Part shown: in pieces, positions 6,329-63,071 of the stretch | How the letters are laid out: each line of letters opens with the position of its first letter | Numbering within the stretch: position 1 is the first letter of the stretch | Assembly: GCA_036567785.1 (NCBI GenBank) | Contig: DATCTV010000062.1 | Span: 1 to 64,000 of the forward strand | Source of the DNA: Desulfomonilia bacterium | Lineage (GTDB): Bacteria; Desulfobacterota; Desulfomonilia; UBA1062 | Direction: 5' to 3' | DNA length: 64,000 nucleotides | The notes under the pieces: model-generated | The model's database searches: none | What the model was told of the DNA's origin: nothing | The model's input: only the letters and a program-made list of their open reading frames with translations | Position numbers and translations under genes: made by a program

Positions 6329-7021
6329 ATGAAGAGGTTTTTCTGCTTCGCCGTGATTTTCTTGGTCGCTTTATCTGTATCAGGATGCTGCGGAAAACTT
6401 AAAAAGGCAAATCTTGATCTTACGAATGAAGTGGCGCAGCTGCAGCAGGATAAGGATTCATGCAACAAGGCATTAACCGCTGCTACAAATGACCTGGCTG
6501 CAAAGGACAAGGCCCTGGCCGCAAAGGCAAAAGAGATTCAGACAAAGGAAGTTCAGGTTAAGCAGCAGAGTGCGGCATTTGCCCAGATGCAGGAAGCGAT
6601 GAAGGCTGAACTTGCTTCAAAGGAAGTCACCCTTAAAGAGCTCGAGGGAAAACTCACCCTTACCATGGTTGAGGCGATCCTGTTCGATTCCGGCAAGGCG
6701 GATGTAAAGAAGGAAGGGAAACAGGCGCTCAAAAAAGTTGCAGGTGTTCTCAAGGAGGTCAAGGATCAGGATATCATAATCGCCGGTTATACCGATAATG
6801 TTAAGATAAGCGCAGCACTGGCAAAGAAATATCCGACCAACTGGGAACTTTCTGCTGCACGGGCAATATCGGTTGTAAAACTGCTTCAGGCCGACGGCGT
6901 CAATCCGGAACTGCTATCGGCCGCAGGCTTCAGCGAATACAGGCCTGTTGCTGACAACAAAACCCCGGAGGGACGCGCAGAAAACCGCCGTATGGAAATC
7001 ATTCTGATGCCAAAGAGATAG
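6329..7021 (+). CDS. OmpA-family peptidoglycan-associated lipoprotein
   Basis: A 230-residue lipoprotein. The signal peptide ends in the lipobox L-S-V-S-G-C with the lipidated Cys at 20. A long Lys/Ala/Gln-rich coiled coil follows (roughly 22-110), then a C-terminal OmpA/MotB domain with F-D-S-G-K-A near the start, G-Y-T-D-N-V, W-E-L-S-A-A-R-A and N-R-R-M-E-I. The OmpA domain binds peptidoglycan, so the protein probably links the outer membrane to the wall. The start at 6329 is preferred over the in-frame ATG at 6281 because it follows GAAGGGGG and places the signal peptide at the N-terminus. It follows copA by about 70 nt and ends in its own terminator. Confidence 0.9.
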   Translation: MKRFFCFAVIFLVALSVSGCCGKLKKANLDLTNEVAQLQQDKDSCNKALTAATNDLAAKDKALAAKAKEIQTKEVQVKQQSAAFAQMQEAMKAELASKEVTLKELEGKLTLTMVEAILFDSGKADVKKEGKQALKKVAGVLKEVKDQDIIIAGYTDNVKISAALAKKYPTNWELSAARAISVVKLLQADGVNPELLSAAGFSEYRPVADNKTPEGRAENRRMEIILMPKR

Positions 7022-7036
7022 TAAATTTTAATAGCG

Positions 7037-7062
7037 AAAAAAGCTGCAGGCAAATCTGCAGC
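7037..7062 (-). terminator. Intrinsic terminator of the feo operon
   Basis: Read on the minus strand, a 7-bp perfect stem GCTGCAG/CTGCAGC with a 6-nt loop is followed directly by six T residues. It lies about 40 nt beyond the stop of the small Cys-rich gene, so it would end the feoA-feoB transcript. Confidence 0.8.
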
Positions 7063-7072
7063 CATATTACTT

Positions 7073-7105
7073 ACAGGGCAGGCAAGAGCCTGTCCTGTTT
7101 TTATT
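7073..7105 (+). terminator. Intrinsic terminator of the OmpA-like lipoprotein gene
   Basis: An 11-bp stem, ACAGGGCAGGC against GCCTGTCCTGT (one G-T pair), with a 4-nt loop, is followed by TTTTT. It lies 52 nt after the lipoprotein stop and its 3' end overlaps the stop codon of the convergent Cys-rich gene. Confidence 0.8.
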
Positions 7106-7262
7106 TCAAGTCCTTATTTTTCCCGCTGCAGATTTGCTGTTCGTCAAGAGGACAATTTTCGCACCTGCATGAGCAAGATGGTTTTCTGATGCGCCTGTAC
7201 AGGGTTGCAGCGAGATAAGCAGCCGCAATACCGACAATCAGGGAGATGATGAGAAGCTCCAT
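7101..7262 (-). CDS. FeoB-associated Cys-rich small membrane protein
   Basis: A 53-codon gene starting 12 nt after feoB. The product begins M-E-L-L-I-I-S-L-I-V-G-I-A-A-A-Y and has one N-terminal membrane helix (about 2-21). A short basic stretch R-R-I-R-K-P follows, then a Cys cluster C-S-C-R-C-E-N-C and a further Cys near the end. This matches the small proteins often encoded after feoB in anaerobes (FeoB-associated Cys-rich membrane protein family), which are thought to occupy the FeoC position; whether the Cys residues bind iron or a cluster is unknown. Start, stop and composition were checked codon by codon on the minus strand. The next feature downstream is the feo terminator. Confidence 0.85.
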   Translation of the reverse strand: MELLIISLIVGIAAAYLAATLYRRIRKPSCSCRCENCPLDEQQICSGKNKDLK

Positions 7263-7274
7263 ATTTTCTTCCTT

Positions 7275-9362
7275 TCAATACCCGAGGAGACGGCCTGTCT
7301 GAAAAACTGCCGCTGAAAGGGTAAAGGCGAAAAGCGTGTTGAAAAGAAACGAAAAGGCGCCCCATTTCCATGAACCCGACTCACGCACGATGCAGACGAT
7401 TGTCGCAAAGCATGGCGCATAAAAAATTATGAAAATCATCAGGCTCAAAGCAGTAAGCGGAGAGAAGCCTTCTGATGATGCAAGACGCCTGGATAACGGA
7501 ATTGATTCGCCGGGGTCAACAGAACCGAGAGAATACGCTGTGCCGAGTGTCGAGACGATAACCTCCTTGGCTGCAAAACCGCCTATAAGAGCGATATTTA
7601 TCCTCCAGTCGAAACCGGCAAGTGCGCTTATGCCTTCAATAGAGGTTCCGATTCTGCCGGCAAACGAATGCCTGAGCGCCGCCTCCGCCCTGGTTGAATC
7701 ATCTGAGTAGGTCTCGCTCTTATTTAGGGCCGGAAATGTCATGAGCGCCCATAGGACGATCGATATGGCCAGAATTATCGTACCTGCCTTTTTGAGGTAT
7801 TGCCAGGTCCTTTCCCATGTGTGGATTATGAGCCCCTTCATTGTGGGAAGCCTGTAGGGCGGCAGTTCCATTACAAAAGGAGTCGCCTCTCCGCGCACTA
7901 CCGTTGAACGCAGAAGCCATGCCACACAAAGGGCTCCCAGCCATGATATGATTGTTATCAGGATCATTACCAGGGCTTTGTTGTGAGAAAAGAATGCTGC
8001 AACCAGCACTGCAAACACGGGCAGTTTCGCCCCGCAGTTCATGAACGGAGCAGTCAGCATTGTGGCAAGCCTTTCCCTGGGGCTTTTTATCGTCCTGGTT
8101 GCCATTATGCCGGGGACTGCGCATCCGCCTGCAATACCGCCGGACACGATATATGACATGACCGAGCTTCCGTGAAGCCCGAATATCCTGAAAATCCGGT
8201 CGAGCATGTACGCAATCCTTGCAAGATAGCCCGAGTCTTCAAGCGCTGCAATTCCCAGGAACATGAACATGATGAGCGGCACAAATGTTATAACACCTCC
8301 CACACCGTCGATAATGCCCGAGATGATGAGTGATTTCATCAAACCTTCCGGCAGGTATCTGTCCGCCAGCGCTCCCAGCCAACCGAAAAGGCTGTCGAGC
8401 CATTCTACAGGTACTCTGCTTCCCGAGAAAGTGAACTTGTAGAGCAGGAATATCACGGCGATCATAACGACAGGGCCCGCCAGCCTGTGCGTAAATATCC
8501 TGTCTATCCTGTCGGTAAGGTAAAGCCTGTCAATGGTATCCCTGTGCTTGATTGCCTGTTTGACTATCGATTTGACATAGCCGAACCTGTAGTCTGAAAT
8601 GAGCGCTTCAGGGTATGTCTTGATGGTCGCCTCGAGGTGTCTGTTCAATTTTTCCCTGATAGCATCAAGCCTTGACGATAATTCCTTGTCCTGTTTCTCA
8701 CCCTCTGTGATAATGATTTCATCTTTCTCCAGGTATTTAAGCGCGATCCACCTTGGAGGGTATGTTCCTCCCAGAAAAGAGGAATCCTTGATCAGTATTT
8801 CCATTTCGTCGAGGGTTAAATCTATATCCTCTCCATAGCTGATCTTGTGATCTTTGGATTCATGAGAGCCGGCTGCAGCGACTGCTTTTTCTATAAGACT
8901 TTCGAGGCCTATGCCCTTGCGGCCTATTGTTTCAACTACAGGCACTGATAAGAGCGAGGACAGTTTATCCGTATCGATCTCGATTCCACGATTTCTTGCC
9001 ATGTCCATCATGTTGAGCGCCACGACCAGATTGATACCCATTTCCATGAGCTGCACATAGAGATAAAGGTTTCGTTCAAGATTGGATGCATCGACAATAT
9101 GAACTATCACGTCCGGTTTCTCTTTTGCTATGAAATCCCTGGCCGCCTGTTCTTCAAGAGAATAGGCGGACAGGGAATATGTTCCGGGAAGATCTACTAT
9201 GTTAATCCTTTCACCGTTATATGAGTAGACGCCTTCCTTCTTTTCTACTGTAACACCGGGATAATTGCCTACATGCTGGTGGGAGCCCGTGAGTTCGTTG
9301 AAAATTGTTGTCTTTCCCGAATTGGGGTTTCCCGCAAGTGCTATAACCAGCTGTTTATTCAT
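7275..9362 (-). CDS. feoB: Ferrous iron transporter FeoB
   Basis: An inner-membrane Fe(II) uptake protein of 695 residues. The cytosolic N-terminal GTPase domain has G1 G-N-P-N-S-G-K-T (11-18), G3 D-L-P-G-T-Y-S-L-S and G4 N-M-M-D. A helical linker and about ten membrane segments follow, including the two gate repeats (for example G-G-C-A-V-P-G-I-M-A-T-R). The in-frame ORF extends upstream to 9440, but ATG at 9362 gives the normal FeoB N-terminus (M-N-K-Q-L-V-I-A-L-A-G-N). It overlaps the last 8 nt of feoA, so the two are translationally coupled. Control probably comes from the divergent DtxR-type regulator. Confidence 0.95.
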   Translation of the reverse strand: MNKQLVIALAGNPNSGKTTIFNELTGSHQHVGNYPGVTVEKKEGVYSYNGERINIVDLPGTYSLSAYSLEEQAARDFIAKEKPDVIVHIVDASNLERNLYLYVQLMEMGINLVVALNMMDMARNRGIEIDTDKLSSLLSVPVVETIGRKGIGLESLIEKAVAAAGSHESKDHKISYGEDIDLTLDEMEILIKDSSFLGGTYPPRWIALKYLEKDEIIITEGEKQDKELSSRLDAIREKLNRHLEATIKTYPEALISDYRFGYVKSIVKQAIKHRDTIDRLYLTDRIDRIFTHRLAGPVVMIAVIFLLYKFTFSGSRVPVEWLDSLFGWLGALADRYLPEGLMKSLIISGIIDGVGGVITFVPLIMFMFLGIAALEDSGYLARIAYMLDRIFRIFGLHGSSVMSYIVSGGIAGGCAVPGIMATRTIKSPRERLATMLTAPFMNCGAKLPVFAVLVAAFFSHNKALVMILITIISWLGALCVAWLLRSTVVRGEATPFVMELPPYRLPTMKGLIIHTWERTWQYLKKAGTIILAISIVLWALMTFPALNKSETYSDDSTRAEAALRHSFAGRIGTSIEGISALAGFDWRINIALIGGFAAKEVIVSTLGTAYSLGSVDPGESIPLSRRLASSEGFSPLTALSLMIFIIFYAPCFATIVCIVRESGSWKWGAFSFLFNTLFAFTLSAAVFQTGRLLGY

Positions 9363-10311: not shown

Positions 10312-12075
10312 TTATTTACTGGCTTCCTCAACAAAGCTTTTTATTCTGTTATTCAAATCTTCAATCATATCTCCGGCTGAATCGGATTGAGTCTGCCCGG
10401 CTGAATCTGTTGACATATACGCGTTTCCCGTATCCAGTATCATCCGGTTATTAATGGCTGAACCGTTCGAAAATTTCTGCCAGCGCGGCAGCGAATTGCC
10501 TGTGTTGGGGTCGCCGTATCGTGCAAAACTCGACCAGTAGGCCATGACAATATCCGACATGTGTTCGCGTTCGATCTTATTCGAGTTGTTCCATTCGCAG
10601 CCGATCAGGCTTTTCCCGGGTGGAAGAAAATTTCCAAAAAGAAAAGGCACATCAAAGGCATGCGCTGATCCGAGAAGGAAATCAAAAGGTCTGGCACCTC
10701 CCGTGAATTCAAACCTGTAGGCATAGACATCATTCTGGTATCTGGACAGCAGGGAAGCCGTTTTGTCCACACCATATCCCTGGAACACGATCTGACCGGC
10801 AGAGGTGACGGTATTGTAAAGAGGTTTCAGTGCCGCGGGGAAAAAGTCGCTGAATTCGAGATTGGCGCTGTCAGGTTTATGCTGTTTGATGAGTCCGTGA
10901 AGTTTGTGTGTTTCAACTCCCAGCATAACAAGGAAGAGCTTCAGTTCTTCGGACATGCAGCCGAGCATTACAGGTACCTTGTGATAGCCACCCTGTTTCA
11001 GAGTATTGAAGACGTTCTGTGGAATTACCGTTCCGTCCTCATATATGCCGAATGAAGTCGTACCGCTTTCCTTTGTACTGCCTGACGCAGTCGATACGTC
11101 AGGATTGTATATCCTATATGCAGGCACGCTTCTCAGGTATGAGGCAAGCCATTCACCGCCTTTTTCCCTGATCAGGGCGGTTGCCGATTCCTCGTTGACT
11201 GCGAGCTTGTCCTGTATCATGAGCCTCGTGATTACCTTGTCAGCCCGCTTGTCGCCGGTTTCGACCTTTGTAGAGACAGGGAAGCCGCTGTGCATGATGG
11301 CCTTATGGTAAAGGTTTTCGGTAAGCGGGGAAGCAAGCAGCGAGTGGATATTGAAGGCGCCGGCGGATTGTCCGCATACGGTGACGTTTCCGGGGTCGCC
11401 TCCAAACGAAGCCGCATTTTTCTGAATCCATTCAAGGGCCTTGATCAAGTCGAGGGTGCCATAGTTACCGGAACTGTCAAGTGCGTCGCCGTCCCTCAAT
11501 GAGGGATGTGTAAACCAGCCCATAAGACCAAGACGATAGTTTGCAGTAACGACAACCATGTTGGTCTTTCTGCTGAGGTTGGCACCGTTGTATACGGGCA
11601 GGCTGGAGGCTCCAATCACGTTCGCCCCGCCGTGTATGTAGAAAAACACAGGCAGGTTTGTTTCATCAGTAGCCGGGCGCCATACGTTCAGATAGAGGCA
11701 GTCCTCACATCCTGTCGGTTTTCCGTAGAGCTTTTCGTCAAGTATGTAAAGGATTGTTCCATACTGTGTGCAGGCACTGCCAAAGCTTGTTGCGTCTCTT
11801 ACGCCGTCCCATGGATCGGGGTCTCTAGGCGCCTTCCACCTGAGGTCGCCTACGGGTGGCTTTGCGTAGGGGATACCGAGCCATGAAAGCGTACCGTTAT
11901 CGGTCTGGCCTTTTATAATGCCCGATTGTGTTTCTCTTATTAGCTGCTGCCCGGCTAACGTTTCTTCAGATGTGGTATTTTCATCCTGATTGCCGCCTGA
12001 AGATGCGCAGGAAAACAATAAAAGGCTAAAGACAAAAAAGAATGCCGGAAAATGAATCAATCTCAAATTAAACAT
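10312..12075 (-). CDS. Type B carboxylesterase, lipoprotein
   Basis: A 587-residue alpha/beta hydrolase of the carboxylesterase type B/cholinesterase family. It has G-I-P-Y-A-K-P-P near the start, C-E-D-C-L-Y-L-N-V-W-R-P, the oxyanion segment Y-I-H-G-G-A, and nucleophile elbow G-Q-S-A-G. A late His in S-A-H-A-F-D-V-P-F-L-F-G is probably the catalytic base. The N-terminus is a lipoprotein signal with lipobox L-L-F-S-C (C23), so the enzyme is probably anchored outside the cytoplasm. ATG at 12075 follows GGAGG by 9 nt; TTG at 12078 also fits. Substrate unknown. It converges on the DtxR gene with only 3 nt between the stops. Confidence 0.88.
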   Translation of the reverse strand: MFNLRLIHFPAFFFVFSLLLFSCASSGGNQDENTTSEETLAGQQLIRETQSGIIKGQTDNGTLSWLGIPYAKPPVGDLRWKAPRDPDPWDGVRDATSFGSACTQYGTILYILDEKLYGKPTGCEDCLYLNVWRPATDETNLPVFFYIHGGANVIGASSLPVYNGANLSRKTNMVVVTANYRLGLMGWFTHPSLRDGDALDSSGNYGTLDLIKALEWIQKNAASFGGDPGNVTVCGQSAGAFNIHSLLASPLTENLYHKAIMHSGFPVSTKVETGDKRADKVITRLMIQDKLAVNEESATALIREKGGEWLASYLRSVPAYRIYNPDVSTASGSTKESGTTSFGIYEDGTVIPQNVFNTLKQGGYHKVPVMLGCMSEELKLFLVMLGVETHKLHGLIKQHKPDSANLEFSDFFPAALKPLYNTVTSAGQIVFQGYGVDKTASLLSRYQNDVYAYRFEFTGGARPFDFLLGSAHAFDVPFLFGNFLPPGKSLIGCEWNNSNKIEREHMSDIVMAYWSSFARYGDPNTGNSLPRWQKFSNGSAINNRMILDTGNAYMSTDSAGQTQSDSAGDMIEDLNNRIKSFVEEASK

Positions 12076-54319: not shown

Positions 54320-55618
54320 ATGTCCGGTTCCGCGAACACAAGGGGTGTTCTTTTCGACGGTATCGCTCCGTCCGAACAGGCGCTGCTGAATCAGATAGAA
54401 ATCGAAGAAAGGGAGGGTTCTGTATTTGTAAAGTGTCCGAACCTCTTTATTCAGCAGCATGTTAAACGAAATTATACCGACAGGATCAGGGATGCCTTGG
54501 GAAGAGATGTCGAGTTCATCATTTCAGAGAAGTCTCCTGAGCCTCCTAAACAGGTAAAGAAGCCGGTTCAGATGATGCTTCCTGAGGCGTCACCTATGGC
54601 AACCGGGGTAAATCCCAAATATACTTTTGATAATTTTGTTGTAGGGAAATGCAATGCATTCGCATTTCAAGCTGCAAAGGCTGTCGTGGAAGAAGGTACC
54701 AGGTATTCACCGCTGTATTATTATTCCGATACCGGACTGGGAAAGAGCCACATCGCACATGCAATCGGCAACGGAATAATAGGAAGGAGAAAGGGTGTAA
54801 AGGCTAAGTACACGACAGCCCAGGACTTTTCACAGGAGTATGTGTATGCAGTCAGGAATGACTGCCTTGACAAGTTCAAGAGAACCTACAGGTGCGGCCT
54901 GGACCTGCTGTTCATAGACGATGTCCATGTTTTTTCAAGCAAGGAAAAAACCCAGATGGAGGTCTCCTCCCTGCTCGATGACATCATGGCTATGGGCACA
55001 CAGGTCGTGTTCGCGGGATACAGGCCGCCGGGTACCATACAGCAGCTTGACAAGGGGCTCAAATCAAGGATGTCTTCGGGGCTGTTGATACATATCAAAT
55101 CGCCTGACATGCTCACAAGATCGGCGATTGTCAGGGCAAAGGCCGGTGCCGAGAATATAATCATGCCTGACGAGGTCGTGGAATTTATAAGCGGTACTGT
55201 CGTAAGCAATATAAGAGACCTTGAAAGTGCGGTCATGACTGTAATAGCAATGGCCTCACTCATGAAGCGTGAGATAAATATGGATATCGTGCATGAGGCG
55301 CTTGAAGGTACTATTACAAGAAGGACTCGCATAGATATTCCATTTATCCTTGAGGTTGTTTCGAGGAATTTCGGCATTGATAAAGATGCCCTAGTGTCTC
55401 CTTCACGGAAAAAGGAAATTGCCTATCCCCGGCAGATTGCGATTTACCTCTGCCGTCAGTACACAAGGGATTCGTTGCAGACAATAGGCGAGGCATTCGG
55501 AAGAAAGCATTCATCAGTCATCCATACTCTTGAAGTCATGGATGCCCAGTACAGGGACAATCTCAAGACGAAAAAGGAAGTGGATTTTATTATGGAGAAG
55601 ATAGAGGCAGGCGTCTGA
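54320..55618 (+). CDS. dnaA: Divergent DnaA-like AAA+ initiator protein
   Basis: A 432-residue DnaA homologue. Domain I is shortened, starting at the second half (F-V-K-C-P-N-L-F-I-Q-Q-H-V). Domain III starts with Y-T-F-D-N-F-V-V-G-K. Walker A reads S-D-T-G-L-G-K-S-H (136-144), where the first Gly of the usual G-G-V-G-L-G-K-T-H is Ser. Walker B is L-L-F-I-D-D-V-H, and the region L-K-S-R-M keeps the Arg finger. Domain IV has P-R-Q-I-A-I-Y-L-C-R and F-G-R-K-H-S-S-V-I-H, where the canonical G-R-D-H has Lys. dnaN and recF are not adjacent. It may be the genome's only DnaA or a paralog; the changes favour a paralog. Confidence 0.8.
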   Translation: MSGSANTRGVLFDGIAPSEQALLNQIEIEEREGSVFVKCPNLFIQQHVKRNYTDRIRDALGRDVEFIISEKSPEPPKQVKKPVQMMLPEASPMATGVNPKYTFDNFVVGKCNAFAFQAAKAVVEEGTRYSPLYYYSDTGLGKSHIAHAIGNGIIGRRKGVKAKYTTAQDFSQEYVYAVRNDCLDKFKRTYRCGLDLLFIDDVHVFSSKEKTQMEVSSLLDDIMAMGTQVVFAGYRPPGTIQQLDKGLKSRMSSGLLIHIKSPDMLTRSAIVRAKAGAENIIMPDEVVEFISGTVVSNIRDLESAVMTVIAMASLMKREINMDIVHEALEGTITRRTRIDIPFILEVVSRNFGIDKDALVSPSRKKEIAYPRQIAIYLCRQYTRDSLQTIGEAFGRKHSSVIHTLEVMDAQYRDNLKTKKEVDFIMEKIEAGV

Positions 55619-55815: not shown

Positions 55816-58464
55816 ATGGAAAGAATGCAACGTTGTTCAGTAAAAGAATTCATAAAATACATTTCAATTATACTTATTTCTTTTATTGCATTTATGCCGG
55901 CGTGTGGAGGTGGCGGTGGTGGTAGCGACGGCGGAGCAGGTGATGATCTGGCCATTGTTTCCACAACTCCTGCAGACGGGGCGACTGATGTTGATATTAC
56001 TACAACAGTGCAGCTTGTTTTCAATACCCCGGTTGACCCTGCTACGCTGGAAAGCGAAGGTGCAGGATCCTTCGTTGACAGCGAAGGTGATGACGTTGAT
56101 CTGGATTTGAGTATAAGCGGCGACGGAAAGACAGTAACGTTGACGCCTAAAGAGCCGCTTGACTACGGCGAGACATATACGCTTACACTCTATGCGGGCG
56201 TAGTAAAAAACACTTCCGGCAAAGGTCTCGTATCGGATGCCAGCTTCAGCTTCACGACCGAGGCTCAGCCCGAGTCGTTTGGCGTTTCATCCAGGTCTCC
56301 GGCCTCTGATGCGACAAATGTTTCCATAAATACTGCAATAGATATAGTCTTTAATATGCCTCTCAATCAGTCAACCGTTTCAGCAACCACTTTCAATGTC
56401 ACGCACGGCGGTACGCCCGTTAACGGTAGTATAACGTTTCCGACGGCTTATACCGCAAGGTTGACACCAACGGCGGCGCTTAGCTACGGAACCTTATATA
56501 CTGTTACGCTTACATCAGGCATTCATAACCATCTCGGCCAGGCGCTTGCCGGGCAGTCCTATAATTTTACAACGGCAGTGGACCCTGATGCGCTCACGGT
56601 TGATTCGACCACTCCCGCTTCAGCCGCAGAAAATGTCAGTGTTTCGACATCCATTATCGTGGTTTTCAATCAGAGTATAAATTGGAATACAGTTAACAAC
56701 ACGACATTCATTGTTAAAATTCATGGAACTTCAAACCCGATAAGCGGAAATTACCACACGGACAACAGAACAGTAGTATTTACACCTAATACGCCAGGCT
56801 TCAGTTACGGAACTCAATATGATGTAACGATAACAACGGGCCTGCAGAGCAGTGAGGGGCATGCCCTGGCTGCAGACTATAACTTCAGTTTTACAACGAT
56901 TAGCCAGCCGGATACATTCTATGTTGCTAGCAATGTTCCGAACGATGACGCGACCGATGTGTCGGTGAATGCCCCGATTGTTATAACATTCAATATGGCT
57001 GTAGATATTGGAACAGTGGCATATGGCAGTTCTTTCAGCGTTATTGCAGAAGGAGTAGCATCCCCTGTTGAAGGCGCAATCACATTTTCGCAACAGAATA
57101 CTGTCATGACCTTCACCCCGATTGAAGCGCTATCGACAGATACTGTTTACTGGGTCAATCTGACCCATGATATTAAAAGTGCTGTCGGGTCGCTTCCTCT
57201 ATTTGCTAAAGAATACACATTCACAACTTCAGCCGCCACGCACAACAGCGGCGACCCTGATATGGGATTCGGCACAGGCGGAATCGTAAAGGCTTTAATC
57301 GGAAGCTGGTCCAGTTCGGGCGCCTTGTTATTGATGCCTGACGGCACCATTGTTGCAGGCGGAGGAAGCTTTCACGGCTCATCGGACTACAGATTTGCAG
57401 TTGCCGCATTCGATTTTATCGACGGTTCTTATATTGGATCAGTTACGACGCCTATTGAAGGTAGCACGGGATCGAGGATCGAAAGACTTGCCCTTCAAGG
57501 AGATAAGCTGATCGCTGCCGGAAACTGGACGGAGAGTGAAAGTGACGAAAGCATCCCCGTTCTTGTCAGATACGCCAGCGGAGCGCTTGACCCAACCTTC
57601 GGTTCAAACGGAGTGGTCAAGGAGCCTTTCAGCGATACTGGCATGAGAGAATTGAGTGATATGATGGTGCTCGACAGCAACAAGATACTCGGTACTGGCG
57701 TTTATTACAGCACCAGTTCCCCCAACTATAACGGTTTCCTGGTGCGGTATAATGAAAACGGCACGCGTGATGCATCATTCGGCACGAACGGTCTGGTTAC
57801 GATAACATATGGAAGCCATAATTATGCTTCGAGGTGCTTCGATATCCGCAGCAACGGGAAGATAGTCATCGGAGGAATTTATACTGATGATATGACTACA
57901 TTCCATTATGTGCTCACGCAGTATAACGCTGACGGTACGCTCGATACCGGTTTCGGAACTAACGGATTTGCCGTTTCCGATTTAACCTTTACCGATCCTG
58001 ACAATATGAGCGGTGATATAATTCTCCAGGATGACGGAAAGATAGTAATGACAGGAAAATATTCCGACGGATCGAAACTGGTATTCCTTGTAGCAAGATT
58101 CAACAGCAACGGATCGGTTGATACTTCATTCGGCACGAACGGAAAAACCACCACATCGATCGGCACCGGTGACGCCCAGGCCTGCACCATTGTTTTTGAC
58201 AACACAGGTAATATAATCGTTGCCGGATTGTCCAAGAACGGTACAACCAACATGCTCGCGCTTGCAAGGTACACTGCAGGCGGTGTACTTGACACCACCT
58301 TCGGTAATGGTGGGACAGTTACAATGGATACGGGTATGGGAACTTCGATCTCAAGGAGCATGAATGTCCTTGTACAGCCTTCTGATGGAAAGATAGTCGT
58401 AACATGCAGAGGCGGTGACGACATGGGCAACGGCGTATTTGCAGTAGCAAGGTTCTGGTCGTAA
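55816..58464 (+). CDS. Lipoprotein with four Ig-like (Big_5) domains and delta-60 repeats
   Basis: An 882-residue surface protein. The lipobox F-M-P-A-C (about C30) is followed by a Gly-run tether. Four Big_5/SbsA-type Ig-like domains of about 100 residues each follow, opening with S-T-T-P-A-D-G-A-T-D-V, S-R-S-P-A-S-D-A-T-N-V, S-T-T-P-A-S-A-A-E-N-V and S-N-V-P-N-D-D-A-T-D-V, and each ending near F-T-T. The C-terminal half holds six delta-60 repeats, marked by D-P-T-F-G-S-N-G, D-A-S-F-G-T-N-G, D-T-G-F-G-T-N-G, D-T-S-F-G-T-N-G and similar, which predict a beta-propeller. Probably surface adhesion or binding. It ends in a bidirectional terminator. Confidence 0.85.
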   Translation: MERMQRCSVKEFIKYISIILISFIAFMPACGGGGGGSDGGAGDDLAIVSTTPADGATDVDITTTVQLVFNTPVDPATLESEGAGSFVDSEGDDVDLDLSISGDGKTVTLTPKEPLDYGETYTLTLYAGVVKNTSGKGLVSDASFSFTTEAQPESFGVSSRSPASDATNVSINTAIDIVFNMPLNQSTVSATTFNVTHGGTPVNGSITFPTAYTARLTPTAALSYGTLYTVTLTSGIHNHLGQALAGQSYNFTTAVDPDALTVDSTTPASAAENVSVSTSIIVVFNQSINWNTVNNTTFIVKIHGTSNPISGNYHTDNRTVVFTPNTPGFSYGTQYDVTITTGLQSSEGHALAADYNFSFTTISQPDTFYVASNVPNDDATDVSVNAPIVITFNMAVDIGTVAYGSSFSVIAEGVASPVEGAITFSQQNTVMTFTPIEALSTDTVYWVNLTHDIKSAVGSLPLFAKEYTFTTSAATHNSGDPDMGFGTGGIVKALIGSWSSSGALLLMPDGTIVAGGGSFHGSSDYRFAVAAFDFIDGSYIGSVTTPIEGSTGSRIERLALQGDKLIAAGNWTESESDESIPVLVRYASGALDPTFGSNGVVKEPFSDTGMRELSDMMVLDSNKILGTGVYYSTSSPNYNGFLVRYNENGTRDASFGTNGLVTITYGSHNYASRCFDIRSNGKIVIGGIYTDDMTTFHYVLTQYNADGTLDTGFGTNGFAVSDLTFTDPDNMSGDIILQDDGKIVMTGKYSDGSKLVFLVARFNSNGSVDTSFGTNGKTTTSIGTGDAQACTIVFDNTGNIIVAGLSKNGTTNMLALARYTAGGVLDTTFGNGGTVTMDTGMGTSISRSMNVLVQPSDGKIVVTCRGGDDMGNGVFAVARFWS

Positions 58465-58541: not shown

Positions 58542-59132
58542 TCAGAGAAGCTTGAGAATCTGTTGCTGAAAACCTGTCAATACACCCTCAATGTTCAATT
58601 TTCTGGTGTCAATAATCGTTGAAAACAATGCCATTCCCTCCCAGAATGCAACCATGGCCGTACTCAGTATTTCCATGTTGATATTATCGGACGATGTGCC
58701 TTCGATCATGGATGTTATGGTCCCGATCCATTGTGAATAGGTCTGCTGGAGTTTTTTTCTGACTGACGGGTTGTACAGGGCTATCTCCCATATCTCCACG
58801 AACAGCCTGGAAAGGTCTTTGTTTAAAGTGATCTTGCTGTTTGCAAATTCAAATATTTCTTGGATAAAGTCCTGGCGCGAACATCCGGATGTATCCTTTG
58901 CCCCAAGCCATTCCTTGAACTGGGAACCGTAATATTCCATAACATGATCTATATAATGCAGAAGGATGCTTTCCTTGCTTTCGAAGTAGTAGTGCAGGAC
59001 TCCATGATTCACTCCGGCAACCTTTGCTATATCCTTGATGGAGGTTTTTTCGAAGGATTTTTCCTTAAGACAAACACTGAGAGCTTCAAAAATCTGCAGC
59101 CTCCGCTCTTCCTTGACATTTTTTCTCGGCAT
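58542..59132 (-). CDS. TetR-family transcriptional regulator
   Basis: A 196-residue repressor. The N-terminal HTH reads R-L-Q-I-F-E-A-L-S-V-C-L ... F-E-K-T-S-I-K-D-I-A-K-V-A-G-V-N-H-G-V-L-H-Y-Y-F-E-S-K-E, the standard TetR pattern. An all-helical ligand-binding domain of ~140 residues follows. ATG at 59132 starts just before the HTH and follows GAAGGGG; the open frame continues to a TTG at 59255 but without TetR-like sequence. It is divergent from the aminotransferase pair, whose promoter carries a perfect palindrome, so it probably represses that operon. The inducer is unknown. Confidence 0.9.
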   Translation of the reverse strand: MPRKNVKEERRLQIFEALSVCLKEKSFEKTSIKDIAKVAGVNHGVLHYYFESKESILLHYIDHVMEYYGSQFKEWLGAKDTSGCSRQDFIQEIFEFANSKITLNKDLSRLFVEIWEIALYNPSVRKKLQQTYSQWIGTITSMIEGTSSDNINMEILSTAMVAFWEGMALFSTIIDTRKLNIEGVLTGFQQQILKLL

Positions 59133-59262
59133 GTCCGAATCCCCTTCGCTTAAGAGTTTAATCAGAATGACAAGCTTGTTTACGGCCATACTACGGATTG
59201 ACAGACATAACGTCAAGCAGCCTCTAGCCGTTTGCTGATTTTCACAATGATTCAACAGTCCG

Positions 59263-59307
59263 TTGACAAGGCTGTATTATATGATTATTAGTTAGTCAGC
59301 TGACTAA
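59263..59307 (+). promoter_or_regulatory. Promoter with TetR-type operator of the aminotransferase operon
   Basis: TTGACA (59263-59268), a 17-nt spacer and TATTAG (59286-59291) form a sigma-70 promoter. Immediately after the -10 lies TTAGTCAGCTGACTAA (59292-59307), a perfect 16-bp palindrome covering the expected transcription start. That is a typical place for a TetR-family repressor to bind, and a tetR-type gene is divergent. Confidence 0.7.
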
Positions 59308-59351: not shown

Positions 59352-60758
59352 ATGAAGGAAGGCTCTTATGCAAGGATGGACAGGCAGGAAAGGGATTACA
59401 TTCATTATCTTTTTGGAAAGCATATCTCTCACGGACAGGTGCGTTACCTCAGATGCGCACATCTCGATACGTATGAAAGGAAGAGAAAACATGTAGGTTT
59501 TACTGATGCGGAATCAGGAAGATACTTTTATGATGCCTTCAGTTCTGCAGGCTGTTTCAATGTCGGCAGGATGAACCCCGAGATCATAAAGGTGCTTGAG
59601 GATGCGCTGGATTCTTATGACATGGGTTCGGCGGGTTTTCTTTCCAAACCCAAAATCGAATTTGCAGAGAAACTTGCACGCGTATCGCCGGGAGATATGA
59701 ACCGTGTAGTATTATGTGCTACGGGTGCCGATGCATGTGCCTGTGCAATGAAACTTGCAAAAGGGGCTACCGGCCGCAACGAAATTATTACCATGGTCAA
59801 GGCGTATCACGGGCATGAAGGGTTCAGTCTTTCGGGTAACGGAAAAGACTATTACAAGGAACTGTTCCTTCCTCTGATGCCGGGATTCAAACTGGCACCA
59901 TTTAACGATCTCGAAGCAGTCAAGAAGCTTGCATCAAAAAACACGGCCGCCATTGTCCTGGAGCCTGTTCAGGGTGAAGGCGGAATTCACGTGGCGAAAA
60001 AGGAATATATGCTCGGTCTGCGAAAACTCTGCGACGAACTTGGGATAATGCTTGTCTTCGACGAGGTCCAGACAGGCATAGGAAGGACCGGAAAACTATG
60101 GTGCTCTGAGCATTACGGCGTCGTACCGGATATAATGTTTCTGGCTAAATCCATAAGCGGAGGTTTATATCCCAACGGCGCTGTTGTTTATCGTGATATA
60201 AAACTTTTGAGTGACTATGTTGATAAAAATCCCACATTCCATGCAGCGTTAAGCGGTGGAACCGATCTGGCCTGTATTGTCTCAAGCAGGGTGCTGGACT
60301 TCATTATCGATAATAAGATCAGTGATAATGCAGCTGTGGCGGGAAAACGCTTCAAGGAAGGACTGGAGGCGTTATGGCGTGAAAATCCCAAACTGATCAA
60401 AGAGGTAAGGGGCCTTGGACTCATGATAGGCATGGAGTATAATTATGAATTTGTAGGCGCGCTGATGGCCGAATGTCTGGCTGCAAACGGTATATGGGCG
60501 GCATATTCCGGGAATGCGCCTCAGGTTATGCGCTTCCAGATACCTATTACTGTAACCATGGAGGAGGTCGAGGATATGCTCGTAAGGATAAGGCAGTCTG
60601 TCAAGGACATGAGAAAATACCTTATTCCTCTTTTGCCTCTGGCAAGGTTTTCCATGTTCCGCAAGCTGCTCGACAACCTTCATATTCAGATAGTGGCGTT
60701 CAATCTTATGAGGGATATCGAAGAATTCATTATGATTAAGATATTGAGAAGATCTTAA
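59352..60758 (+). CDS. Class III PLP-dependent aminotransferase, likely catalytic subunit
   Basis: A 468-residue fold-type I PLP enzyme. It has A-T-G-A-D-A (phosphate loop) at 123-128, ring-stacking Y152-H153-G154, D237 of F-D-E-V-Q-T-G and the Schiff-base lysine K266 in L-A-K-S-I-S-G-G. In class III enzymes a T-F/Y-G-G motif near residue 300 donates Thr to the other subunit's PLP phosphate. Here it reads A-L-S-G-G, with Leu300 at the Thr position. A ~50-residue C-terminal extension (L-A-R-F-S-M-F-R-K-L-L-D onward) is amphipathic. GGAGG precedes the ATG. A paralogue follows 14 nt later. The substrate is unknown. Confidence 0.85.
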   Translation: MKEGSYARMDRQERDYIHYLFGKHISHGQVRYLRCAHLDTYERKRKHVGFTDAESGRYFYDAFSSAGCFNVGRMNPEIIKVLEDALDSYDMGSAGFLSKPKIEFAEKLARVSPGDMNRVVLCATGADACACAMKLAKGATGRNEIITMVKAYHGHEGFSLSGNGKDYYKELFLPLMPGFKLAPFNDLEAVKKLASKNTAAIVLEPVQGEGGIHVAKKEYMLGLRKLCDELGIMLVFDEVQTGIGRTGKLWCSEHYGVVPDIMFLAKSISGGLYPNGAVVYRDIKLLSDYVDKNPTFHAALSGGTDLACIVSSRVLDFIIDNKISDNAAVAGKRFKEGLEALWRENPKLIKEVRGLGLMIGMEYNYEFVGALMAECLAANGIWAAYSGNAPQVMRFQIPITVTMEEVEDMLVRIRQSVKDMRKYLIPLLPLARFSMFRKLLDNLHIQIVAFNLMRDIEEFIMIKILRRS

Positions 60759-60772
60759 AAAGGAGGGTCAGG

Positions 60773-62020
60773 ATGAATAAACCAGAAAAATACAACAATA
60801 CGGACAAGGATATGTTTTTCGAAAAAGCGGCCAAGGTCTTTTCATCGGGCATGGTTGATATGATCAAGTCACAAGGATTCTGTTTTCTCGAGAATAAACG
60901 CGAAGGTGCTTACGTTTCCGATACGGATGGAATATCCTATATAGACTGTTATACTTCCGAAGCGACATACAACCTGGGCAGAAGAAATCCGAAACTTGCC
61001 GCATGTCTGAAGAAGGCCATACATGAAACAGATCAGGGCAACTTCGTAATGCTTTCGGAGGAAAAGGCTCTTCTTGCAAGAAAAATAAGCGAATTCATTC
61101 CGGGACCCCTTGAATGCGTATTATATGGTGTCACCAGGGGTGAATCCATGGAAGCTGCATGCAAGCTGGCCAGGGGGTTCACGGAACGTCCTGAACTTGT
61201 GACGGTTGACGGCGGTTCATACGGAGACGGCGGATTCGCCATTTCGCTTTCAGCGAGAAACGACAAGAAGGATTTCGGCGAACTCATTCCTGCAGTTAAA
61301 ATTGTCCCCTTTGGGGATATCAACGCCGCAAAAGCCTCAATCGGAAGCAAGACGGCAGCCTTCATCCTGGAGCCTGTTCAGGCTGAAAACGGATGTCGTG
61401 AGGCGAATTCTGAATATCTGAGGCAACTCAGGTCCTTATGTGATAAATCCGGCGCAAAGCTTATTTTTGATGAGAGCCAGACAGGGTTCGGACGCACAGG
61501 AAAGAAGTTCGCATTCGAGAATGCAGGCATATATCCTGATATTCTTGTAATCGGTGAGGCCATTACAGGCGGAATGTTTCCTATGACAGCCATGGTATTT
61601 ACAAAAGAACTGAAGAATCTCTTTGATGTACATCCCCTCATACATCTCTGCACGTTCGGAGGGCATGATATCGGGTGCCGGGTTGCAATGACGGCGCTTG
61701 ATGAATATGAATATGTTAAACCCTGGGAAAACGCAGATGTCATGGGGAGGCGTCTGATAAACGATCTGAAAGGTATAGTTTCCGAGTACAAGGACGGAAA
61801 AATTTCCGTTAGCGGCAAGGGGCTTCTTATTTCAATGTCGTTTGCTTCGGAAAACAGTGCAAGGGAATTTTGCAACCAGGCTGTAAAAAACGGCGTACTT
61901 TTAAAACAGGGAAAGGTGGACGGCAGGTCCGTCGTAATGAGGCCTGTTTTGACAATATCGGAAACCGAAATAGATATGTTGCTTAATGGTGTGAAAAAGG
62001 CACTGAAAGGTATGGAATAA
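60773..62020 (+). CDS. Class III aminotransferase homologue lacking the PLP lysine
   Basis: A 415-residue paralogue of the preceding enzyme with intact fold motifs but a degraded active site. The lysine block aligns without gaps (P-D-I-L-V-I-G-E-A-I-T-G-G against P-D-I-M-F-L-A-K-S-I-S-G-G), with Glu262 (codon GAG) in place of Lys. The phosphate loop is T-R-G-E and Y-H-G is lost (G-G-S-Y-G-D). D233 is kept, and so is the cross-subunit motif C-T-F-G-G with Thr294. It cannot act alone as a normal aminotransferase; a partner role in a heterodimer is inferred. It lies 14 nt after the first gene with AAGGAGGG, so the two are co-expressed. Confidence 0.82.
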   Translation: MNKPEKYNNTDKDMFFEKAAKVFSSGMVDMIKSQGFCFLENKREGAYVSDTDGISYIDCYTSEATYNLGRRNPKLAACLKKAIHETDQGNFVMLSEEKALLARKISEFIPGPLECVLYGVTRGESMEAACKLARGFTERPELVTVDGGSYGDGGFAISLSARNDKKDFGELIPAVKIVPFGDINAAKASIGSKTAAFILEPVQAENGCREANSEYLRQLRSLCDKSGAKLIFDESQTGFGRTGKKFAFENAGIYPDILVIGEAITGGMFPMTAMVFTKELKNLFDVHPLIHLCTFGGHDIGCRVAMTALDEYEYVKPWENADVMGRRLINDLKGIVSEYKDGKISVSGKGLLISMSFASENSAREFCNQAVKNGVLLKQGKVDGRSVVMRPVLTISETEIDMLLNGVKKALKGME

Positions 62021-62147: not shown

Positions 62148-63071
62148 ATGAATGAAGAAATAATTGATATGCATACACACCTGGGTAATATTCTTTATCC
62201 TGGAGGCGGAGGTCTGATCGAAAAAACAGGCCAAAAAAAGGCAATCAGATTTGATATAATCACAATTTCAGAAAAGATGCTGCACTTTGATCTGGGCGAC
62301 AAGAAAATGGAAAAAATATTGTTCGGAAAGTATATAACAATTGCCGAAAGGGCAAGAAACCTGACTGCGACGCGAGAAAATATGCGCCGATCAATGGATG
62401 AAAACGGTATTGTGGCAAGTGCCGTTATGCCGGTACCACCTAATGTGCGTTTTTCAGACCTGTTTCGAGCCGCCGGAAAGGATAAAGGAATTCTCCCGTT
62501 TACAGGTATCGATTTTTCACAGTCTTCCGATGCCATTGACTCGCAGCTTGCAGCAGACGTCAATGCGGGTGCCAGGGGATTGAAGCTTCACCCTGTTATT
62601 CAGAAGGAAAAATTGACAAGCGCAAAGACATTTTCAGCAATGGAATCTTTTATGCGCTACAATCTCCCGGTACTATGCCATAGCGGCACATCTTCATATT
62701 ATCCGAAAAGCGAGCATTTCATGGAAGAACCTTCATACGGCGAGATTTTCTATATCAGAAACCTTGCACGGGCGTTTCCCGGAGTATGTTTCATTGTTGG
62801 ACATTCGGGGCTTTATGAGGTGGAGGATGCAATAAATATGCTGCATCCCTATCAGAATATATATATGGAGATATCGTTTCAGAACCCTTGGACGATTCGC
62901 AGGCTGATAAGGACATTCGGACCTGACAGAATTCTTTATGGTACGGACTGGCCGTGGGGTGACAGGCGTACCGCCGTAAAGTGTGTACAGCTCGCATGCG
63001 GGAAAGACAGGCAACTTGCGCGCCGTATATTATATGAGAATGCAGCTGAATTATTGTGTATCAACTTATGA
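62148..63071 (+). CDS. Amidohydrolase-2 family metal-dependent hydrolase
   Basis: A 307-residue TIM-barrel hydrolase. The metal-binding H-x-H appears as M-H-T-H-L at 8-12. Later family positions are L-K-L-H-P-V, L-C-H-S-G-T, G-H-S-G-L-Y and the C-terminal Asp in Y-G-T-D-W-P-W-G-D. Members hydrolyse or decarboxylate small carboxylic acids and lactones, so the substrate is open. GAGGGG lies 5 nt before the ATG. The 127-nt gap from the aminotransferase pair holds the hairpin element, so it may be part of the same operon or separately controlled. Confidence 0.85.
   Translation: MNEEIIDMHTHLGNILYPGGGGLIEKTGQKKAIRFDIITISEKMLHFDLGDKKMEKILFGKYITIAERARNLTATRENMRRSMDENGIVASAVMPVPPNVRFSDLFRAAGKDKGILPFTGIDFSQSSDAIDSQLAADVNAGARGLKLHPVIQKEKLTSAKTFSAMESFMRYNLPVLCHSGTSSYYPKSEHFMEEPSYGEIFYIRNLARAFPGVCFIVGHSGLYEVEDAINMLHPYQNIYMEISFQNPWTIRRLIRTFGPDRILYGTDWPWGDRRTAVKCVQLACGKDRQLARRILYENAAELLCINL

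Follow-up and report, generated by a model that had tools for sequence, protein, structure and literature searches.

Reciprocal active-site losses in a conserved pair of class III aminotransferase genes point to a likely heterodimeric enzyme with a single active site

Introduction

Can two neighbouring aminotransferase genes, each deprived of a different part of the active site, encode the two halves of one enzyme? The question is raised by a gene pair within a 64,000-nucleotide stretch of DNA from a Desulfomonilia bacterium (contig DATCTV010000062.1; 'the window' below denotes this whole stretch). Class III aminotransferases are described as homodimers, and the putrescine aminotransferase YgjG of E. 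coli (PatA; 4UOX/4UOY) illustrates how their sites are built at the subunit interface. In YgjG, Lys300 carries PLP and Asp271 contacts the pyridine nitrogen, while the phosphate is bound by Gly150, Thr151 and by Thr332 reaching in from the other subunit; the PLP ring is sandwiched by Phe180 and Val273, and Glu243, Gln274 and Arg426 are conserved (PMC4244111). The PLP lysine and the donated threonine of the T-F/Y-G-G motif are thus each expected in every class III subunit. An initial annotation of the window noted that the second gene of the pair lacks the former and the first gene lacks the latter, and proposed that only a mixed dimer would contain one complete site. Here, we examined this proposal by sequence comparison, co-occurrence, gene order, phylogeny and structure prediction; no biochemistry underlies what follows.

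Results

Genes A and B follow one another in the same direction on the plus strand, with 14 nt between them, and each is preceded by a strong ribosome-binding site (for gene A the Shine-Dalgarno sequence aaaggagg). Gene A (59352..60758) encodes 468 aa and gene B (60773..62020) 415 aa. The sole Pfam family matched by either is PF00202 (Aminotran_3), with 283.5 bits for A and 238 bits for B against a cut-off of 30.5. Both stay below the thresholds of all listed NCBIfam aminotransferase families that we checked; for the putrescine aminotransferase equivalogs, A and B scored 289.5 and 234.3 bits with PRK11522 (cut-off 612) and 241.6 and 200.8 bits with TIGR03372 (cut-off 658.65). In a PDB search, YgjG (4UOX) was the closest solved structure for both, and we used it as the reference for residue mapping.

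Mapped onto YgjG, the two proteins show different losses. Lys266 of A (codon 60147..60149, plus strand) and Glu262 of B (codon GAG, 61556..61558, plus strand; within V-I-G-E-A-I) align with Lys300, and Leu300 of A (codon TTA, 60249..60251, plus strand; within H-A-A-L-S-G-G) and Thr294 of B (codon ACG, 61652..61654, plus strand; within T294-F-G-G) align with Thr332. Besides the lysine, A retains G125 (G150), Y152 of its Y152-H153-G154 motif (F180), E209 (E243), D237 (D271), V239 (V273), Q240 (Q274) and R394 (R426), and its changes are A126 for T151, L300 for T332 and S301 for F333. B retains E205, D233, Q236 and the T294-F-G-G loop; its own pocket is altered by R122 for G150 (codon 61136..61138, plus strand), G123 for T151, S149 for F180, S235 for V273, E262 for K300 and V388 for R426. 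We infer from this mapping that B has kept what a partner's site would receive and lost its own pocket, and that A has done the reverse. All residue assignments of the initial annotation, namely K266, Y-H-G, D237 and Leu300 in A, and Glu262, a changed phosphate loop and T294-F-G-G in B, held in this comparison, as did the placement of the Leu/Thr position at the interface, given that Thr332 of YgjG is contributed by the other subunit (PMC4244111).

Is this pattern a peculiarity of one genome? A scan with a B alignment, taking one genome per species, returned 25 loci at 46-63% identity, with the next matches at 34% or below, and an A gene stood directly upstream of B at all 25. Three phyla are represented: Thermodesulfobacteriota (Syntrophaceae-like and Desulfobacteraceae), Spirochaetota and Hydrogenedentota. 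Some of the organism labels rest on how records are titled (e.g. 'Deltaproteobacteria bacterium') and can be trusted no further than those titles. Two additional A/B pairs were found among genomes of the phylum. Residues were counted in the 25 aligned A, the 25 aligned B and 30 ordinary relatives. At the PLP-lysine position we found lysine in 25/25 A and in 30/30 ordinary relatives, and glutamate in 25/25 B. The phosphate-loop glycine is kept in every A and every ordinary relative and is arginine in every B. At the donor position, all 25 B carry threonine, as do 29 of the ordinary relatives (the remaining one has serine), and no A does (H16, I3, Y2, S1, C1, L1, F1). B proteins hardly vary in the donor loop, HPLIHL(C/S)T(F/Y)GG. 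In A proteins the threonine position is occupied by seven different residues, and such a contrast would be expected if only the loop of B serves a live site. Elsewhere in B, the ring-stacking position (Phe180 of YgjG) varies among C, W, Y, L, R and S, the Arg426 position is Leu, Val or Ile, D233 and E234 are kept, and Q236 is present in 22/25. With 25 out of 25 pairs from three phyla following it, the residue pattern is far beyond chance. Among 36 conserved columns, five were changed only in A, seven only in B and none in both; this absence of overlap is about what independence predicts, and we do not count it as evidence of complementarity.

We also rejected the possibility that another lysine of B has taken over the role of the PLP lysine. 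Three lysines are invariant among B proteins (K81, K98 and K131). None of them stands in for the missing one, and A has equally invariant lysines (K101 and K134) that match K98 and K131.

The AlphaFold (AF2) model of B reached a pLDDT of 91.3 and a pTM of 0.91, and its top Foldseek match was YgjG 4UOX with a TM of 0.93, so that the prediction of a class III subunit fold for B is a confident one. We also modelled an A-B fusion, built by reading through the natural stop of one locus (L064) where both genes share a frame. This model, from an alignment of only nine rows, was weak (pLDDT 69.9, pTM 0.60); it speaks neither for nor against a dimer and is not used as evidence. A specific feature of A is a C-terminal tail of about 46 residues (60618..60755, plus strand) with the pattern LDN..QI..FN..RD.EE, conserved throughout the A alignment; single relatives lack it and match the A profile only up to about position 420 of 468. 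In the weak fusion model the tail was predicted to be helical, and its role is unknown.

The two genes are inherited together. Within the window's family (24 genomes), both genes were present in the identical 17, and among 395 genomes of the phylum, A (above 700 bits) and B (above 570 bits) occurred in the identical 12; in none of the genomes searched, whether of the family or of the phylum, was A found without B or B without A. These counts are of genomes, many of which are related to each other. At every locus A directly preceded B in the same orientation, and wherever the starts were clear the spacing was -4 to +26 nt. The initial annotation had suggested looking for conserved adjacency and for co-variation of K/E and L/T, and had named solitary B homologues as an observation that would count against it: adjacency was found always, the K/E exchange is fixed in 25/25 and the threonine is found in B and never in A, and no solitary B was found, A and B sharing exactly the same genomes. 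One genome (G018) carries two A/B pairs. In another, a 6.7-kb contig (G016:C157; L056/L082) has a partial B gene at either end, the two being 56% and 63% identical to the window's B, which reflects either a second pair or an assembly break.

In a maximum-likelihood tree, the A proteins and the B proteins each formed a separate branch (100/100 for both). These two branches lie inside a clade of 51 (100/100) that includes complete single enzymes with Lys and Thr. We infer that the pair descends from class III aminotransferases holding both residues. Which of A and B lies nearer to any particular group of singles is left unresolved by the tree (92/62). Pairwise distances among A and among B were strongly correlated (r = 0.96, reached by 0/2000 permutations). 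Such agreement is expected of partners and equally of any linked, co-inherited genes. B evolves somewhat faster, with a mean pairwise distance of 0.455 versus 0.383 for A. Two further pairs of neighbouring class III aminotransferase genes were seen (G054:C32, L058:8551-9831 and 10433-11719; G098:C14, L142:5162-6505 and 6672-8033). Both members of each have the lysine, and one has N-S-F-G-G, with Ser for Thr; it is possible that they represent an independent early stage of subunit specialisation.

The complete singles of the clade (G000:C27:110083-111342; G071:C15, L144:6270-7541) are the nearest intact relatives, about 43-46% identical to A and 37-41% to B. Unlike A and B, they hold both Lys and STFGG in one gene, and they usually stand beside an APC-like permease gene, in place of a second aminotransferase gene. 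Two operons of the same genus give the strongest indication that A and B together do the job of one ordinary enzyme: one (G375, L139:1870-8158) reads TetR, Ald, amidohydrolase, A, B, and the other (G071:C15, L144:4115-11293) reads TetR, Ald, single complete aminotransferase, permease, amidohydrolase, with the same palindrome (see below). This replacement rests on one genus only. A close orthologue of the complete single enzyme occurs in five genomes of the family, four of them without the pair (Fisher p = 0.014 for the anticorrelation, uncorrected for relatedness), and the window's own genome holds both.

A TetR/BetI-type regulator gene, identified by BetI/TetR matches, is transcribed divergently from the pair (58542..59159, minus strand), and its orthologue (cluster 2) is present at 17/26 related loci, with 43-49% identity across loci. 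Between this gene and A, about 45 bp ahead of the latter, lies the palindrome TTAGTCAGCTGACTAA (59292..59307, unstranded), the only match to TTAGTY-N4-RACTAA in the 3.96-Mb genome of the window. In 570 kb of related loci the motif has 20 matches, all near operon starts, against an expectation of 0.1 from mononucleotide shuffling, and most pair loci carry it near the operon start. The palindrome is probably the TetR operator; binding of the TetR protein to it is inferred. The pair is commonly preceded by genes for an alanine dehydrogenase and an Amidohydro_3 hydrolase. Downstream of the pair in the window (62148-63071, and from 63256 onward into L039) are Amidohydro_2, saccharopine-dehydrogenase-like, Amidohydro_3, SDR, TetR and HpaB-like genes; the pair has other neighbours in relatives, where Ald and Amidohydro_3 usually lie ahead of it. 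Farther upstream in the window, a 432-aa open reading frame with DnaA-like sequence (54320-55618) adjoins a gene for a large repeat-rich protein (55816-58464).

Discussion

Based on the sequence pattern, co-occurrence, adjacency, co-divergence and the predicted fold of B, we consider it likely that A and B together make up a class III (fold type I) aminotransferase that exists as an obligate heterodimer and has one working active site. The comparison thus supports the proposal that only the mixed dimer contains one complete site; physical pairing and activity remain inferred. In the arrangement we propose, A would supply the Schiff-base lysine K266, D237 to the pyridine nitrogen, the ring-stacking Tyr152, the phosphate loop and the substrate arginine Arg394, and B would supply in trans the Thr294-Phe-Gly-Gly loop clamping the PLP phosphate, plus Leu289 at the entrance. 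The mirror site, composed of the pocket of B and the loop of A, would be dead, owing to the Lys-to-Glu and phosphate-loop Gly-to-Arg changes and the loss of the Arg426 equivalent in B, and to the loss of the threonine in A. The chemistry is likely ordinary transamination, although activity is inferred and the substrate a guess: A keeps the Glu-Arg switch (E209, R394) common to YgjG and ornithine aminotransferase, and the reaction would probably be of the same kind as that of the clade's complete singles, namely the transamination of amines or omega-amino acids. It may be coupled in many genomes to alanine dehydrogenase, whose nearby gene suggests pyruvate/alanine as the amino carrier.

The main objection is that losing one phosphate-contact threonine need not abolish activity, and one A even has Ser at this position, so that active A homodimers could exist; they cannot be excluded by sequence. 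One rival reading takes A for an ordinary active homodimer that tolerates the loss and B for a separate non-catalytic pseudoenzyme regulating or scaffolding something else. In its favour, A keeps nearly all cis catalytic residues, the His found in place of Thr in 16/25 A could in principle touch the phosphate, and Lys-to-Glu pseudoenzymes are easily imagined. We nevertheless regard it as unlikely, because the position in A is H, I, Y, S, C, L or F without a conserved substitute, A is never found without B, and the donor loop of B is near invariant although B's own pocket is lost.

Two further readings start from B. Lysine-less fold type I enzymes exist, and ColD and E1 use His. B could itself be an active enzyme with other chemistry, e.g. 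PMP-dependent in the manner of ColD-type dehydratases, with Glu262 as acid/base; D233, E234 and mostly Q236 (22/25) are kept and Glu262 is invariant. Against this stand the arginine at the phosphate-loop glycine in 25/25, the variable ring-stacking position and the replacement of Arg426 by Leu, Val or Ile, and a completing threonine would have to come from A, which does not have it, or from a B homodimer. We judge this reading very improbable. That B is a decaying duplicate without function, as its lost catalytic lysine and its faster evolution (0.455 versus 0.383) might suggest, is practically ruled out, since the frame is open, the predicted fold is confident, the changes are fixed in 25/25 and B is retained beside A across three phyla, which already contradicts decay.

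Returning to the heterodimer, a bolder version of it is that the pocket of B was not merely lost but rebuilt, with an Arg122-Glu262 salt bridge filling the PLP site or binding an effector. This is suggested by the invariance of both residues in B across three phyla. Without distance data we offer it only as a speculation that we lean slightly against. If it were true, the one-site aminotransferase would have in B both a structural partner and a regulator.

The principle has a precedent, to which the initial annotation already pointed. In serine palmitoyltransferase, SPT2 carries the lysine and SPT1 does not, both are required, and a single interface site is presumed (PMC6148460). Like A and B, LCB1/LCB2 (SPT1/SPT2) are fold type I paralogues with and without the PLP lysine, so that the working principle of the analogy holds. 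Family membership does not: serine palmitoyltransferase belongs to the alpha-oxoamine synthases, whereas A and B match PF00202 only. It is also composed of eukaryotic membrane proteins, in contrast to the bacterial operon pair described here, and the losses in the latter are reciprocal, the lysine-bearing A also lacking the donor threonine; LCB2 was not compared for an equivalent loss. The glycine decarboxylase subunits GcvPA/GcvPB are likewise a fold type I paralogue pair with the lysine in one subunit. They differ from A and B, matched only by PF00202, in family and reaction. YgjG shares the interfacial PLP site proposed for A/B, but is a homodimer with two complete sites, Lys300 and Thr332 being present in each subunit (PMC4244111). 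Our searches for heterodimeric or heteromeric class III aminotransferases turned up no such case; they covered open-access literature, which misses most subscription journals. Within that literature, the proposed subunit arrangement would be new for class III aminotransferases, and its principle is known from serine palmitoyltransferase.

Annotation pipelines would label A and B each as an independent aminotransferase. The two bacterial proteins should express easily, unlike the membrane-bound eukaryotic serine palmitoyltransferase. If our reading is correct, a one-residue swap in each subunit should abolish the only active site or shift it. The pair would then be a clean example from nature of how duplicates of a homodimeric enzyme turn mutually dependent, with losses that are reciprocal, fixed and co-inherited in three phyla.
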